Below are positions 17,048 to 22,035 of a stretch of 64,000 nt of DNA, in pieces (position 1 is the stretch's first letter; every line of letters starts with the position of its first letter). Under the pieces are notes generated by a model. The model saw only the letters and a program-made list of their open reading frames with translations, ran no database searches and was not told the origin of the DNA. This DNA comes from Chryseolinea serpens (GTDB lineage: Bacteria > Bacteroidota > Bacteroidia > Cytophagales > Cyclobacteriaceae), in the NCBI RefSeq assembly GCF_900129725.1, contig NZ_FQWQ01000001.1, positions 2,728,001 through 2,792,000 of the forward strand. Direction: 5' to 3'. The position numbers and the translations under genes were made by a program.

Positions 17048-18151
17048 CTACACGCGTTCTTCCACCTTGTTCATCACCTTGGTCTGGATCTGGATGGACT
17101 CCTGGTGAATGAGCTTCAGCAGGTCGCTGGTGAAGTCGGCATTGAGGCCCATGGCCTTGCCCAGCGTGATGCGGGTTTGGATGATCTCTTCCCACCGTGC
17201 CACTTGCAGGATGGTGACGCCGTTTTCTTTTTTGTATTGACCGATCTTCTCGGATATTTTCATACGGGCCGCCATTTTGGACATGATCTCGTCGTCCAAC
17301 TGGTCGATCTGTTCGCGCAAAATGCTGAGGGTATCCTTGAAGGTCTTGTTGTCGGACGACACCGTGCGCACCACCAGGCCGTCGATGATCTTGCCGAGGT
17401 TTGCGGGAGTCACTTGTTGTTTGGCATCGCTCCAGGCAGCATCGGGGTTGATGTGGCTTTCGATCATGAGACCGGCCATGTCGAGGTCGAGTGCTTTCTG
17501 GGAGATGAACGAAATAAGCTCGCGGTTACCCGAGATGTGGCTGGGATCGCAGATGATGTCCAGTTCGGGGATGCGGGTCTTCAGCTCGATGGCCATGTCC
17601 CACATGGGCGCATTGCGGAAAGGTCCTTTTTCGAAGGAGGAGAATCCGCGGTGAATGGCGGCCAGCTTGGTGAGACCGGCTTTGTTGAGACGCTCGAGGG
17701 CGCCGATCCACAACTCCAGGTCGGGGTTGATGGGGTTCTTCACCATCACGGGGATGTCTACGCCTTTCAGCGAGTCGGCCACCTCCTGCACGGAGAAGGG
17801 GTTCACCGTGGTGCGGGCACCTACCCAAAGGATGTCGACACCGGCCTTGAGACAGGCTTCCACGTGGGCGGCGTTGGCCACTTCGGTGGTAACGGGCAAG
17901 CCAGTTTCTTTTTTAGCGGCGATGAGCCATTTCAATCCTTCTTCGCCAGCGCCTTCATATTGGCCGGGGCGTGTGCGGGGTTTCCAGATGCCGGCGCGCA
18001 GAGCGTGCACTTTGCCGGTGGCGGCCAGTTGTTTGGCGGTGGCGATGGTCTGTTCTTCGGTTTCCGCGCTGCAAGGTCCGCTAATGATGATGGGCTTACT
18101 GGCGGTGGGGAGCCATTTCGAAATTGATTCCAGTTGCAATGTATGCTTCAT
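17048..18151 (-). CDS. Bifunctional DAHP synthase / chorismate mutase
   Basis: 367 residues. The N-terminal about 265 residues are a type I beta (KDO8PS-like) 3-deoxy-D-arabino-heptulosonate 7-phosphate synthase: GPCSAETEEQ, AGIWKPRTRPGQYEGAGEEGL, WVGARTTVNPFSVQE, the IHRGFSS segment and DPSHISGNR are visible. The C-terminal about 90 residues form an AroQ-type chorismate mutase (LREQIDQLDDEIMSKMAARMKISEKIGQYKKE). The enzyme thus covers both the entry into the shikimate pathway and the branch-point step to prephenate; in related fusions the mutase domain also mediates feedback inhibition by prephenate or chorismate. It is the last gene of the pheA-led operon, 12 nt after tyrA. Confidence 0.95.
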   Translation of the reverse strand: MKHTLQLESISKWLPTASKPIIISGPCSAETEEQTIATAKQLAATGKVHALRAGIWKPRTRPGQYEGAGEEGLKWLIAAKKETGLPVTTEVANAAHVEACLKAGVDILWVGARTTVNPFSVQEVADSLKGVDIPVMVKNPINPDLELWIGALERLNKAGLTKLAAIHRGFSSFEKGPFRNAPMWDMAIELKTRIPELDIICDPSHISGNRELISFISQKALDLDMAGLMIESHINPDAAWSDAKQQVTPANLGKIIDGLVVRTVSSDNKTFKDTLSILREQIDQLDDEIMSKMAARMKISEKIGQYKKENGVTILQVARWEEIIQTRITLGKAMGLNADFTSDLLKLIHQESIQIQTKVMNKVEERV

Positions 18152-18163
18152 ATGCGTGTGTTT

Positions 18164-19045
18164 TTATTTTGCGATCTGTTGTTTTGTTTGTTTGTGTTCT
18201 ATTCCGTTTAAAATTTCTCTGATGCGGTTGGCGTCGGCCATGATGCGATGAAGTTCTTTGGCATCGCGTTTCATGAGGTAATACTGAAACTTTTGCAGGT
18301 GCATGATGTATTCCAGCAGGGCCTGGCTCAGGTATTCGGCGTTTTGCTCGAAGATGGGCGCCCACATGTCGGGCGAGCTTTTCGCCAGGCGCACCGTGGA
18401 AGCAAAACCGCTACCGGCCAGCGCGAAAATATTCTTCTCATCCCGTTCGATGTCCAACACCGTTTGCCCCAGCAAAAAGGAGCTCACGTGCGAGAGGTGC
18501 GACACGTAGGCCACGTGTTTGTCGTGTTCTTCGGGTTCCATGAAGATGGTGTTCATGCCCAGGGCGTCGAACACCTGGCCCACCACATCCAATGCGTGTG
18601 CAGAGGACTTGTCGCGTTCGCAGATGATGTTGGTCTTGTTGCGGAACAGTCCTTCGAAGGCGGCTTCGGGTCCTGAGTTTTCCGTACCGGCAATGGGGTG
18701 CGCAGCTACAAATTGGTTGCGTTTCGGGTGGTGGGCGATGGCGCGGCAGATCAAACTTTTGGTCGAACCGGCATCCATCACCACGGCATCTTTGTGCACT
18801 TTGTCCAACACCGAAGGCAGCAATTTGCCCAAGGCGTTTACCGGGATGGCCAGGATGATCAGATCGGACGTTGTCAGGGCTTCTTCTTTTTCTCCGATGC
18901 GATCGACCAATCCCAACTCCACGGCCCGGGCCGCGTGGGCGGCATTTTGTTCCAGCCCGATCACCTCCGACGCGAGACCTGCTTTTTTCAGATCCAACGC
19001 GATGGAACCTCCAATCAACCCCAGACCGATAACCGTTGTCTTCAT
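18164..19045 (-). CDS. tyrA: Prephenate dehydrogenase
   Basis: 293 residues. The N-terminal Rossmann motif (MKTTVIGLGLIGGSIALDLK) binds NAD(P). SDLIILAIPV, DAGSTKS, and the active-site stretch AAHPIAGTENSG with its His follow, then the helical dimerisation domain (HDKHVAYVSHLSHVSSFLLG). It converts prephenate to 4-hydroxyphenylpyruvate for tyrosine synthesis. No ACT domain is attached. It is third of four structural genes, 15 nt after the aminotransferase. Confidence 0.95.
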   Translation of the reverse strand: MKTTVIGLGLIGGSIALDLKKAGLASEVIGLEQNAAHAARAVELGLVDRIGEKEEALTTSDLIILAIPVNALGKLLPSVLDKVHKDAVVMDAGSTKSLICRAIAHHPKRNQFVAAHPIAGTENSGPEAAFEGLFRNKTNIICERDKSSAHALDVVGQVFDALGMNTIFMEPEEHDKHVAYVSHLSHVSSFLLGQTVLDIERDEKNIFALAGSGFASTVRLAKSSPDMWAPIFEQNAEYLSQALLEYIMHLQKFQYYLMKRDAKELHRIMADANRIREILNGIEHKQTKQQIAK

Positions 19046-19060: not shown

Positions 19061-20260
19061 TTATGCGTTTACCGAGGCCTTTGACGAAACCGCGGCCTTA
19101 TCGCCTAAAAACTTTTGAATGCGTTGCACGGCCTCTGTGAGCATCGTTGTGGTGCAGCAGAGGGAAATGCGGATATATCTTCTTCCGGCTTCTCCAAAAA
19201 TGAAACCGGGTGTGATGAACACTTTTGTGCCGTAGAGGATCTCGTCGATCCATTTCTCCACATCCTGGATTTGGTCGGGCGCTTTCGCCCAAACGAACAA
19301 GCCGGATTGCTTGGCCGAATAGCTGCAACCGAGCAGGTCGAGCAACTGCATGGCTACGCGCTTGCGGTCGGCGTACACCGCGTTGAGCGACGTGAACCAT
19401 TCTGCTCCATTTTTCAAAGCTTCCACGGCGGCGTGTTGCAAACCAAGGAACATGCCGGAGTCCATGTTGCTCTTCACTTTCAATACGGCTTCTATATATT
19501 CTTTGCGGCCGGCCACCCACCCGATGCGCCACCCGGCCATGTTGTGTGACTTGCTGAGGGAATTCAACTCCAGCGCCACTTCATCAGCTCCTTCGATGGA
19601 AAGAATGCTCATGGGTTCATCGTTCAGGATGAGGCTGTAGGGATTGTCGTTCACGATCAGGAATTGATTTTTGCGGGCCAGGTCCACCAGCTCCTTCAAT
19701 TCTTCGCGCGACGCGGTTCGGCCGGTGGGCATGTGGGGAAAGTTCACCCACATGATCTTCACTTTCGAAAGATCGCGTTTCTTCAGCGCCTCCATATCGA
19801 TGCCCCAATTGGAATCTTCACGCAACGCGTAAGGACTAAGCTTTGCTCCCACCAGGTTGGCCACCGACGAATAAGTGGGATATCCCGGGTTGGGGATGAG
19901 CACTTCATCGCCTTCGTTCACAAAAGCCATCGCGATGTGCATGATACCTTCTTTAGAGCCCATGAGGGGAAGGATCTGCGTTTCGGGATTCAGCGAAACC
20001 TGGTATGTATTTTTATAAAAGTCGGCAATGGCATTGCGCAGTTGGGGAATGCCTTTGTAGTTCTGGTAGCCGTGGTTGGCAGGATTTTTTGCAGAGACCG
20101 TCAGCGCTTCTATGGTAGAAGCCGATGGCGCCTGGTCGGGGCTGCCGATGCCCAGGTTGATCACCCGCAATTCGGGGGTGTCGAGCCCGCGTACTTCGGC
20201 CAGCTTGCGGCTGAAGTAGTATTCTTCTACCTGGGCAATTCGGTTGGCTGTTGTGATCAT
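19061..20260 (-). CDS. PLP-dependent class I/II aminotransferase (probably aromatic)
   Basis: 399 residues of fold-type I aminotransferase: YQNYKGIPQLRNAIADFY, the PNPGYP substrate-binding stretch, NDNPYS with the PLP-contacting Asp/Asn and Tyr, and SLSKSHNMAGWRIGW with the Schiff-base Lys237. Position between pheA and tyrA implies transamination of phenylpyruvate and 4-hydroxyphenylpyruvate to Phe and Tyr. Sequence alone would also allow a broader aspartate/DapL-like specificity. Spacing to both neighbours is 15 nt, so one transcript is very likely. Confidence 0.9.
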   Translation of the reverse strand: MITTANRIAQVEEYYFSRKLAEVRGLDTPELRVINLGIGSPDQAPSASTIEALTVSAKNPANHGYQNYKGIPQLRNAIADFYKNTYQVSLNPETQILPLMGSKEGIMHIAMAFVNEGDEVLIPNPGYPTYSSVANLVGAKLSPYALREDSNWGIDMEALKKRDLSKVKIMWVNFPHMPTGRTASREELKELVDLARKNQFLIVNDNPYSLILNDEPMSILSIEGADEVALELNSLSKSHNMAGWRIGWVAGRKEYIEAVLKVKSNMDSGMFLGLQHAAVEALKNGAEWFTSLNAVYADRKRVAMQLLDLLGCSYSAKQSGLFVWAKAPDQIQDVEKWIDEILYGTKVFITPGFIFGEAGRRYIRISLCCTTTMLTEAVQRIQKFLGDKAAVSSKASVNA

Positions 20261-20275: not shown

Positions 20276-21118
20276 TTATTTGTATTCGATCTTTCCTTTT
20301 TTATACTCTCCCAACACGTTGAGATTTTTTACCTGCAGCAACACCTGGTGCATGGCATCGTCGTATTGCTTGCGGCGTTTCCATTCCACGTCGATGTGAA
20401 TGGAGTATTCGCTGGGCTTTCCAATGATCGGTATCGATTGGATCTTGGTCAGGTTGATGCTGTTGTTCTTGAAGGTCATGAGCGCGTCGGCCAGGCTGCC
20501 CACTTCGTTGGCCACCTCGAAACTGAGGGAGGCTTTGTTGCTTTCCTTTTTGTCGTGGCTGCGCTTGGTGAGCACCAGGAAGCGGGTGAAGTTCTTCTTA
20601 TGGGTCTCGATGCGTTTCTCCAGGATCTGCAAGCCATATTTTTTGGCGGCATGCTCATTGGCGATGGCCGCGGTGGTCTTCAGCTTCATTTCCTTTACGC
20701 GCTTGGCCGAAAGGGCCGTGTCGTCGCTTTCGCGGATCTCGACGTTTTTCAGGGCGTGGAGGTATTCGGCGCACTGGCGGATGGCCATGGGATGCGACTC
20801 GATGGTGGTGATCTCGCTCAACTTCACCCCCGGCAACGTGAGCAGGTGCATGTGGATGGGGAGGTAGAGCTCGCCAATGATGCTGAAATGATATTCCTGT
20901 AAAAGAAAGTAGTTCGGCAAAATGCTTCCGGCAATGGAATTCTCGATGGCCATCACGGCATAGTCGGCCTCGCCGTTCTTCAGGCTTTCGCAAAGACGAT
21001 GAAAGGACAGGCACTCGATGGTGTCGATGGGCTCGTTGAAATAGGTGAGCGCGGCCACTTCGTGAAAGCTGGTGGCTATCCCTTGAATTGCAATGCTGAG
21101 TTTTTTCTTCTTTGCCAT
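20276..21118 (-). CDS. pheA: Prephenate dehydratase
   Basis: 280 residues. A periplasmic-binding-protein-like catalytic domain (IAIQGIATSFHEVAALTYF, AIENSIAGSILPNYFLL, ESHPMAIRQCAEYL, FTRFLVL) is followed by a C-terminal ACT domain (NEVGSLADALMTFKNNSINLTKIQSIPI, SEYSIHIDVEW) that should bind Phe for feedback inhibition. There is no fused chorismate mutase; that activity sits on the DAHP synthase in the same operon. I chose the ATG at 21118; a TTG eight codons earlier would place the start inside the attenuator hairpin's tail. It is the first structural gene of the operon and lies directly behind the leader-peptide attenuator. Confidence 0.95.
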   Translation of the reverse strand: MAKKKKLSIAIQGIATSFHEVAALTYFNEPIDTIECLSFHRLCESLKNGEADYAVMAIENSIAGSILPNYFLLQEYHFSIIGELYLPIHMHLLTLPGVKLSEITTIESHPMAIRQCAEYLHALKNVEIRESDDTALSAKRVKEMKLKTTAAIANEHAAKKYGLQILEKRIETHKKNFTRFLVLTKRSHDKKESNKASLSFEVANEVGSLADALMTFKNNSINLTKIQSIPIIGKPSEYSIHIDVEWKRRKQYDDAMHQVLLQVKNLNVLGEYKKGKIEYK

Positions 21119-21134
21119 TTTTACACTATGTCCA

Positions 21135-21167
21135 TAAAACAAAAAGTCCCGGGGTTCCGGGACTTTT
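21135..21167 (-). terminator. Attenuator terminator of the pheA operon
   Basis: Read leftwards, AAAAGTCCCGG (21167-21157) pairs perfectly with CCGGGACTTTT (21152-21142) around a 4 nt loop. The stem is followed by U-rich sequence (UGUUUU). It ends about 20 nt before the pheA ATG. Its 5' arm can instead pair over 9 bp with CGGGACTTT at 21218-21210, the last codons of the leader peptide, giving an antiterminator. Confidence 0.88.
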
Positions 21168-21207
21168 CTGAGTTTTTCGTTATCGTTTAGTCAACAACAC
21201 ACTGCTC

Positions 21208-21270
21208 TTAAAGTCCCGTTGGGGTACTAAAAAAGTAGTAAAAGTAAAAGCTTGTGCGGTTGATGGTCAT
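21208..21270 (-). CDS. Phe/Tyr-rich attenuator leader peptide
   Basis: An ATG at 21270 opens a 20-codon frame ending in TAA at 21210-21208. Residues 8-14 are FYFYYFF, seven consecutive aromatic codons (four Phe, three Tyr), the hallmark of an amino-acid-sensing leader. A purine-rich AAGAAGA lies just before the ATG. The frame sits about 15 nt after the predicted transcription start and 90 nt before pheA. A local hairpin (AGU, CCC with GGG, ACU) can form right after the aromatic codons. Its 3' strand is the segment that alternatively pairs with the terminator. A ribosome stalled on the Phe/Tyr codons would free this segment and allow readthrough. This is inferred from layout; no homologous leader was searched. 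Confidence 0.88.
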   Translation of the reverse strand: MTINRTSFYFYYFFSTPTGL

Positions 21271-21290
21271 ATCTTCTTGTTGAAGTGGTT

Positions 21291-21322
21291 CAAAGATAAA
21301 ATGTTTTTTTTTAGTGTTGCAA
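21291..21322 (-). promoter_or_regulatory. Promoter of the pheA operon
   Basis: On the minus strand TTG (21322-21320), a 21 bp spacer containing nine A in a row, then TATCTTTG (21298-21291), an exact TAnnTTTG box. The predicted start near 21285 leaves a leader of about 165 nt before pheA, which fully contains the leader peptide and attenuator. Confidence 0.85.
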
Positions 21323-21585: not shown

Positions 21586-22035
21586 ATGAAAAAAACTTCC
21601 CTATCCTTTCTTATCCCCGTCTTTTTTGCACTGGCCTGTGGCCATAAAGCACACGAACATGAAGGACACGATGAAGCGACGGCACCGGATGCCACCGAAG
21701 CCACCGGCAACCAACTGCTCTACGAGAAAGTGATGAAAGTGCACGACGAAGTCATGCCCAAGCTCAACGATATCTATACCCTGAAAGAGGCGCTGAAAGA
21801 TAAAATAGCCAACACCCCCTCGATGGCCGAAGCCAAGAAAAAAGAGATCGAACAGACCATTGTTCAACTCGACTCGGCCAGCGAGAACATGATGGTGTGG
21901 ATGCGCGCCTTCAACGCCCCGCCCGACAGCCTGGGTGAAGAAAAGGCACGGGAGTACCTGGAAGGACAAATGGAAAAAGTCCAAAAGGTGAAAACCGACA
22001 TTCTCGAATCCATCGAGAAGGCAAAGGCACAGTAA
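21586..22035 (+). CDS. Small His-rich lipoprotein, unknown function
   Basis: 149 residues. The N-terminus is a lipoprotein signal (KKTSLSFLIPVFFALACG) with the lipid-carrying Cys near residue 18. The mature protein begins with a His/Glu cluster (GHKAHEHEGHDE) that could bind a metal ion. The rest is almost entirely helical and charged (heptad-like, about 45-149). Similar Bacteroidota proteins carry the uninformative name viral A-type inclusion protein. No catalytic motif is visible. It stands alone between the aromatic operon and the adhesin gene. Confidence 0.8.
   Translation: MKKTSLSFLIPVFFALACGHKAHEHEGHDEATAPDATEATGNQLLYEKVMKVHDEVMPKLNDIYTLKEALKDKIANTPSMAEAKKKEIEQTIVQLDSASENMMVWMRAFNAPPDSLGEEKAREYLEGQMEKVQKVKTDILESIEKAKAQ

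Follow-up and report, generated by a model that had tools for sequence, protein, structure and literature searches.

The attenuator of the enterobacterial pheA gene (pheL; Rfam RF01859) consists of a short Phe-rich ORF, a terminator and an alternative antiterminator, all located before pheA, and the ilvGMEDA leader of E. coli provides an example of a single leader that senses more than one amino acid made by a common pathway. Some attenuators were reportedly predicted in Bacteroidetes/Chlorobi by Vitreschak in 2004. For Flavobacterium psychrophilum, strong clues to leader-peptide attenuation before amino-acid operons were presented in 2021, together with a structured 5′ element upstream of pheA that is conserved in Flavobacteriaceae and has no Rfam match (PMC9723704). 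Table 1 of PMC2864571 gives Bacteroid-trp RNA (RF01692) as a Bacteroidetes cis-regulatory RNA, and leader-peptide-like sORFs are described in Bacteroides thetaiotaomicron (PMC7366714). Phe- and Tyr-coding uORFs at shikimate genes appear in the legend of Fig. 6 of PMC6429828, and a Phe uORF, uORFC-13-1, precedes aroF in Acholeplasma (PMC8632094). In Actinobacteria, neither phenylalanine nor tyrosine operons were found to have a conserved RNA structure upstream, according to the accessible text of PMC1262725, and the term leader peptide is absent from the accessible main text on the his genes of Bacteroidota (PMC8305728). In the openly searchable literature, which excludes subscription journals and supplements, we found no description of a Phe/Tyr peptide of Bacteroidota or of its antiterminator.

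The window (the whole stretch of DNA analysed, 64,000 nucleotides of the Chryseolinea serpens genome) contains, on the minus strand, a pheA operon with the following features, listed in the direction of transcription.

21320..21322, minus strand: TTG element (-33) of a Bacteroidota-type promoter, read from the sequence, with a 21-bp spacer to TATCTTTG
21291..21298, minus strand: -7 box TATCTTTG (TAnnTTTG), read from the sequence
21208..21270, minus strand: leader peptide ORF MTINRTSFYFYYFFSTPTGL, 20 codons, read as an ORF, with a similar ORF before pheA in 83 of 104 distinct regions
21229..21249, minus strand: aromatic codon run FYFYYFF (residues 8-14), the proposed sensor, read from the sequence, with homologous codon columns nearly all F, Y or W
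21221..21224, minus strand: CCCC, able to pair with GGG at 21217-21215 (proposed anti-antiterminator), standard pairs conserved
21210..21218, minus strand: antiterminator strand CGGGACTTT, overlapping the leader stop codon, from alignment pairing and own-versus-swapped arm tests
21179..21200, minus strand: small hairpin between the two antiterminator strands, predicted in truncated transcripts, its role putative
21157..21168, minus strand: terminator 5′ arm GAAAAGTCCCGG, from fold prediction, sequence and covariation
21141..21152, minus strand: terminator 3′ arm CCGGGACTTTTT and U-rich tail, from fold prediction, sequence and covariation
20276..21118, minus strand: pheA, prephenate dehydratase, ATG at 21118 (Pfam PF00800, E 8.8e-58)
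19061..20260, minus strand: class I/II aminotransferase (Pfam PF00155)
18164..19045, minus strand: tyrA, prephenate dehydrogenase (Pfam PF02153, PF20463)
17048..18151, minus strand: DAHP synthase-chorismate mutase fusion (Pfam PF00793, PF01817)

A preliminary description of this DNA had proposed a Phe/Tyr leader-peptide attenuator here, and all the elements that it named are present. The promoter it read as TTG, 21 bp and box is present on the minus strand at 21322-21291; the 20-codon frame starting at 21270 with FYFYYFF at residues 8-14 and the 9-bp pairing of CGGGACTTT with the terminator 5′ arm are confirmed, and its order of four genes is borne out by Pfam, with a weak match of PheA to the ACT domain (PF01842, 21.3 bits, under the cut-off of 27). 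The terminator that it placed at 21167-21142 as a perfect hairpin has the stem and U tail described, but the extent omitted a closing G-U pair: the stem occupies 21168-21141 and comprises 12 bp, 11 of them Watson-Crick and one the closing G-U, around a loop at 21156-21153, and lies 22 nt from the pheA ATG. TTG / TAnnTTTG is the consensus of Bacteroidota-type promoters, and from this promoter transcription would start ∼15 nt 5′ of the leader ATG. The gene beyond the promoter (21586-22035) is divergent from the pheA operon, and we rejected on this ground the possibility that the terminator is the end of an upstream gene.

The locus is like the enterobacterial pheL attenuator in that a Phe-rich ORF, a terminator and an antiterminator precede pheA, but differs in that Phe and Tyr codons are mixed, with Trp in some relatives, and in that the operon also holds tyrA and the DAHP synthase-chorismate mutase gene. 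The ilvGMEDA leader senses several amino acids, as we propose for this leader, but these are branched-chain amino acids. The best Rfam match at the leader is Phe_leader (RF01859), which aligns over the whole model (1-125) but falls below threshold (28.8 bits, E 0.18, compared to a gathering score of 55). No Rfam family reached its cut-off in the window, and we rejected a known riboswitch or T-box for this reason. Bacteroid-trp (RF01692; PMC2864571) is likewise a cis-regulatory RNA in Bacteroidetes, but nothing in the window reached its gathering cut-off, and the regions L248, L249 and L001 gave no match at E ≤1. The F. psychrophilum element concerns the same gene in the same phylum, but the main text of PMC9723704, to which this comparison is confined, names pheA once and gives no peptide, codons or sensed amino acid. 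The uORFs of PMC6429828 and PMC8632094 code for Phe, or Phe and Tyr, before aromatic-pathway genes, as here, but have other motifs; in the accessible parts of these papers none is given for Bacteroidota, and Tyr is named just in PMC6429828. The claim in the preliminary description that such a leader was new to Bacteroidota was therefore too strong, since the leader-peptide clues and the pheA element of PMC9723704 and the Phe/Tyr uORFs of PMC6429828 precede it.

We assembled PheA relatives from two sources, a search of 59 genomes including the window's own (48 with a match, 30 loci) and named genome contigs (the best 80 of 169 relatives); the resulting 110 pheA loci, minus 6 duplicates, gave 104 distinct upstream regions. 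The named relatives include Chryseolinea, Chryseosolibacter, Ohtaekwangia and Dawidia, and there are also many MAGs labelled Cyclobacteriaceae, Flammeovirgaceae, Cytophagales or Bacteroidetes. Defining a leader as a short ORF with at least 6 F/Y/W (Phe/Tyr/Trp) in 8 residues, we find such an ORF before pheA in 83 of the 104 regions, compared to none of the 104 in antisense and 0.77% of 2080 dinucleotide shuffles; the leader of the window folds with z = -5.3 relative to 200 shuffles. On these three measures we rejected a chance ORF. Nearly all regions with a PheA at least 65% identical have the leader ORF (80/81), while the leader adjoins pheA in just 3 of the 23 with a PheA <52% identical. Of the 83 leaders, 82 have a perfect-stem terminator after them, and in the sole miss (L090) the stem is present, but the U tract does not satisfy the rule used. 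Thus, the upstream alignment that the preliminary description had suggested as a check reveals the same aromatic short frame and terminator in relatives.

The homologous codons of the run are mostly F, Y or W and vary by T/C third-base changes and by exchange of F and Y, with TGG replacing TTY/TAY at the same codons in some leaders; Trp is also present in 23 of the 83 leaders. In 78 of 80 alignment rows, gaps within the aromatic run preserve the reading frame, their lengths being divisible by three. TTT accounts for 304 of the 670 aromatic codons in the 83 leaders. One region upstream of pheA (L087) retains the layout with no intact leader frame, its T run being frame-shifted relative to that of its neighbours, which could be a MAG assembly error. 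The exact promoter box is not retained in most relatives, as an exact TAnnTTTG lies 15-45 nt 5′ of the leader ATG in just 13 of 83 leaders (2.8% of shuffles) and one with at most one mismatch in 40 of 83 (34% of shuffles).

Covariation in a structure alignment of 80 sequences (L011, L015 and L022 left out) supports the terminator: 98.3% of cells are paired, 8 of 12 pairs changed on both sides, and the 57 double-change cells, compared to 10.5 in shuffles, were matched by 0 of 500 shuffles. In the same alignment, 91.9% of the antiterminator cells pair (columns 63-70 with 127-134), with modest column-wise covariation in which two of five measures were not above shuffles (240 and 130 of 500). We also compared, independently of any alignment, how strongly the sequence 3′ of the run pairs with the terminator arm of the same genome (own), with the arms of other genomes (swapped) and after scrambling. 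In a diverse set of 54 leaders, mostly from outside the order, the energies were -13.5 kcal/mol for the own arm, -8.6 for swapped arms and -6.5 after scrambling, and the own arm was better in 52/54 relative to swapped arms and 52/54 relative to scrambling (Wilcoxon P ∼2e-10, ignoring kinship). This set excludes 9 of 63 leader ORFs that have no perfect-stem terminator by the rule used, and retains L239 at -324, probably no leader, and L209 at -318, to which the wrong terminator was assigned. In the close set of 83 leaders, the corresponding values were -14.9, -13.2 and -7.2 kcal/mol; the own arm was better in 73/83 and 82/83, respectively, and was no better than the mean of the swapped arms in 10/83. 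The arm test is stronger support for the predicted antiterminator than column-wise covariation.

The spacing of the codons relative to the antiterminator strand is also conserved. The last aromatic codon lies 7-10 nt before the strand in 80 of 83 leaders, and more loosely, 5-18 nt before it, in 52 of 54 leaders of the diverse set. A ribosome with a codon in its A site covers ∼9-10 nt beyond that codon, and the 7-10 nt gap is where the front edge of a stalled ribosome would sit. At the other end, the distance from the start of the antiterminator strand to the end of the stop codon is 9-35 nt in 82 of 83 leaders, L015 being the exception. According to PMC4833913, ribosome coverage extends up to 12 nt beyond a stop codon. 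In 46 of the 83 leaders, the stop codon ends at least 26 nt past the strand start, such that a ribosome at the stop would hide less of the strand.

In a folding scan of the window leader, the antiterminator probability stays at 0.97-0.98 as long as the A site holds one of codons 4-14, drops to 0.60 at codon 15 and to 0.04 at codon 16, and is 0.00 at codon 17 and all later positions up to the stop. The run of codons 8-14 thus ends at the last codon that leaves the strand fully free, because the antiterminator declines from codon 15; the scan sets no 5′ limit, as codons 4-7 free the strand likewise. In equilibrium folding of the partial transcript, the antiterminator probability is 0.98 with no ribosome, and an untranslated leader is therefore predicted to read through; only a ribosome past the aromatic run, hiding CGGGACTTT, abolishes the antiterminator in this model. 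In the full transcript, the terminator has a probability of 0.97-0.98 even with a stalled ribosome and is favoured with no ribosome as well, so that the decision between the two structures has to be made kinetically, which is the usual situation in attenuators. Among 82 leaders (L015 left out), the antiterminator probability exceeds 0.5 in 81 with the ribosome stalled at the last aromatic codon, in 57, including that of the window, with no ribosome and in none with the ribosome at the stop; this zero is built into the model, which omits RNA behind the front edge. Stalling raises the antiterminator above the no-ribosome state in just 54 of the 82.

These folds bear on the detail that the preliminary description had added to the switch, a pairing of CCC with GGG inside the leader, which as an anti-antiterminator would trap the antiterminator strand when no ribosome is present. 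The three pairs can form in 78, 80 and 71 of 80 sequences, and the pairing is thus conserved; the equilibrium model lends no support to a role as anti-antiterminator, since the antiterminator wins there with no ribosome, which argues against a strong anti-antiterminator in the window. The other part of that folding check, that a stalled ribosome leaves the antiterminator free, did hold in the stall scan.

The pheA locus has three of the elements expected of a ribosome-mediated attenuator: a short ORF with codons for the end products, an intrinsic terminator between leader and first gene and, as judged from sequence and folding, a mutually exclusive antiterminator freed by a stall at the regulatory codons. 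In the mechanism that we propose, RNA polymerase would start ∼15 nt before the leader ATG and a ribosome translating the leader would trail it. If Phe-tRNA or Tyr-tRNA were scarce, the ribosome would wait on codons 8-14 with its front edge at or before CGGGACTTT, and the exposed CGGGACTTT could pair with AAAGTCCCG in the terminator 5′ arm, blocking the terminator and allowing transcription of the pheA-aminotransferase-tyrA-DAHP synthase/chorismate mutase operon. If Phe and Tyr were both plentiful, the ribosome would reach the stop codon inside CGGGACTTT and hide the strand, and the terminator would form, reducing read-through.

To determine how far the leader extends, we searched 291 genomes of the order with a covariance model at E ≤0.01, which matched 51. 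Among 30 of these loci that we read, a leader is present in 25, of which 14 have it in front of pheA and 11 in front of a gene that, by its protein sequence, encodes DAHP synthase; the other 5 have no leader, and matches near E 0.0004-0.0013 include false ones. Seven regions have DAHP synthase directly after the leader (tblastn) and pheA 3.6-4.7 kb downstream. With extended upstream sequence, the leader was found in 7 of 12 order regions, 2 of the 7 being among the 3 leader-bearing regions with a PheA <52% identical. Eight relatives whose PDT open frames are longer (361-406 aa; L193-L200) have no leader in the 4.5-5.2 kb upstream. The class of Chryseolinea is Bacteroidia by its GTDB placement, and a class-wide sample had PDT in 57 of 197 genomes. 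At class loci outside the order, a strict leader lies within ∼215 nt of the PDT match in 29 of 49, and DAHP synthase is downstream in all 29 of these compared to 9 of the 20 others; further class loci gave a strict match in 9 of 15. In other classes of the phylum, the leader adjoins pheA in 1 of 20 loci. Only strict cut-offs discriminate, as in 60 regions we counted 26 sense versus 1 antisense ORFs with at least 7 aromatic residues in 8, 45 versus 20 with at least 6, and 102 versus 146, no sense excess, with at least 5. When 31 loci with no strict match were re-read, a looser aromatic peptide of the RFYFSNNFYFFFSRS type was seen in eight and TYFWFYP in three. Judged from these sequences, the putative leader is widespread in the class; some genera have it in front of DAHP synthase, and it sometimes includes Trp codons.

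At three loci (L175, L176 and L209) the leader is doubled: two Phe/Tyr-rich ORFs lie in tandem ahead of a single pheA operon, no more than ∼360 nt from the PDT match. A terminator-like hairpin comes after each of the two, in L176 as found by stem scan. The tandem attenuators of Salmonella mgtCBR (PMC3641672) are likewise reported to have two leader ORFs in series before one operon, although that operon is of a different kind, whereas here both ORFs are Phe/Tyr-rich, each with a terminator-like hairpin. The leader of L192, L207 and L212 has a further DAHP synthase-chorismate mutase match immediately upstream of it, such that it is flanked by two copies. In a genome outside the class (L231), a short ORF, MFKRYYFYYFTRARDCALSLR, lies 1339 nt upstream of the PDT match and may be the leader of another operon head.

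Other leaders are found in the window's own genome. A His-rich leader, MRNAINNSNHHHHHVKHTMRGTAVS (L248, 1187-1264), precedes hisG (C10:1696008), is followed by a 14-bp terminator and is likely a his attenuator, and a Trp leader, MIKFTNIAWWWHRSGSDM (L249, 1308-1364), precedes trpE (C10:463191) and is followed by a 12-bp terminator. The trpE leader has no Bacteroid-trp match, its best Rfam match being a sub-threshold one to Thr_leader. Four further loci of this genome, with ilvD or homoserine dehydrogenase, showed no evident leader on visual inspection of 600 nt ahead of the domain match, a stretch placed by that match and not by the operon head.

The tract is strongly T-rich, as the share of TTT attests, and it might instead be a U-rich RNA or protein-binding element in which the frame is incidental and a protein or small molecule controls the terminator. 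An incidental frame would not be expected to keep its gaps to multiples of three in 78 of 80 rows, to show TAT/TAC and TTT/TTC exchange, or to accept TGG at the same codons, nor would it account for the His codons ahead of hisG and the Trp codons ahead of trpE elsewhere in this genome; known small-molecule control by a riboswitch or T-box finds no Rfam family at cut-off in the window. We consider this explanation extremely unlikely. A reading in which attenuation is real, but responds to general translation speed or a broad shortage of charged tRNA rather than to Phe and Tyr specifically, draws on the folding results, in which the antiterminator is likewise favoured with no ribosome or with a stall at any of codons 4-7, so that any early block of leader translation could raise read-through. 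The run is nearly all aromatic and ends at the last codon that leaves the strand free, and the operon makes Phe and Tyr, all of which argue against broad sensing, and we judge it very unlikely.

The 22 nt between the terminator and the pheA ATG would accommodate a view in which the terminator is part of an upstream transcript or a fixed road block, with the pheA promoter lying behind it. We give this almost no credence, since the next gene past the promoter is divergent and a leader with a matching antiterminator would be left unexplained. The locus is thus very probably a ribosome-mediated transcription attenuator, a real and conserved Phe/Tyr leader of classical anatomy, as sequence and folding models suggest; conservation, covariation and geometry uphold the central idea of the preliminary description, while its novelty claim goes too far and its CCC:GGG detail, though conserved, finds no support in equilibrium folding. 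Attenuation is further supported because His and Trp leaders precede hisG and trpE in the same genome, and because the leader also heads the operon where the first gene is DAHP synthase.

The leader is a well-resolved case of a known type of attenuation rather than a new mechanism. We lean towards the view that it is a switch of ancient origin common to the class Bacteroidia, which opens when any one of Phe, Tyr and, in some lineages, Trp is short, stays with the first gene of the aromatic operon, whether pheA or DAHP synthase, has the end of its run set by the front edge of the ribosome and is doubled in series in some lineages. Classical leader-peptide attenuation would then extend to the aromatic operon of many genomes in a major bacterial class, with sequence-level support for the alternative pairing, and the leader could become an Rfam family, since no existing family matches at cut-off. 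Start sites in Bacteroidota mostly have no Shine-Dalgarno sequences. If the class-wide switch is real, ribosomes that start without such sites trail RNA polymerase closely enough to control termination, and the leader would provide a natural test of how tightly transcription and translation are coupled in Bacteroidota.
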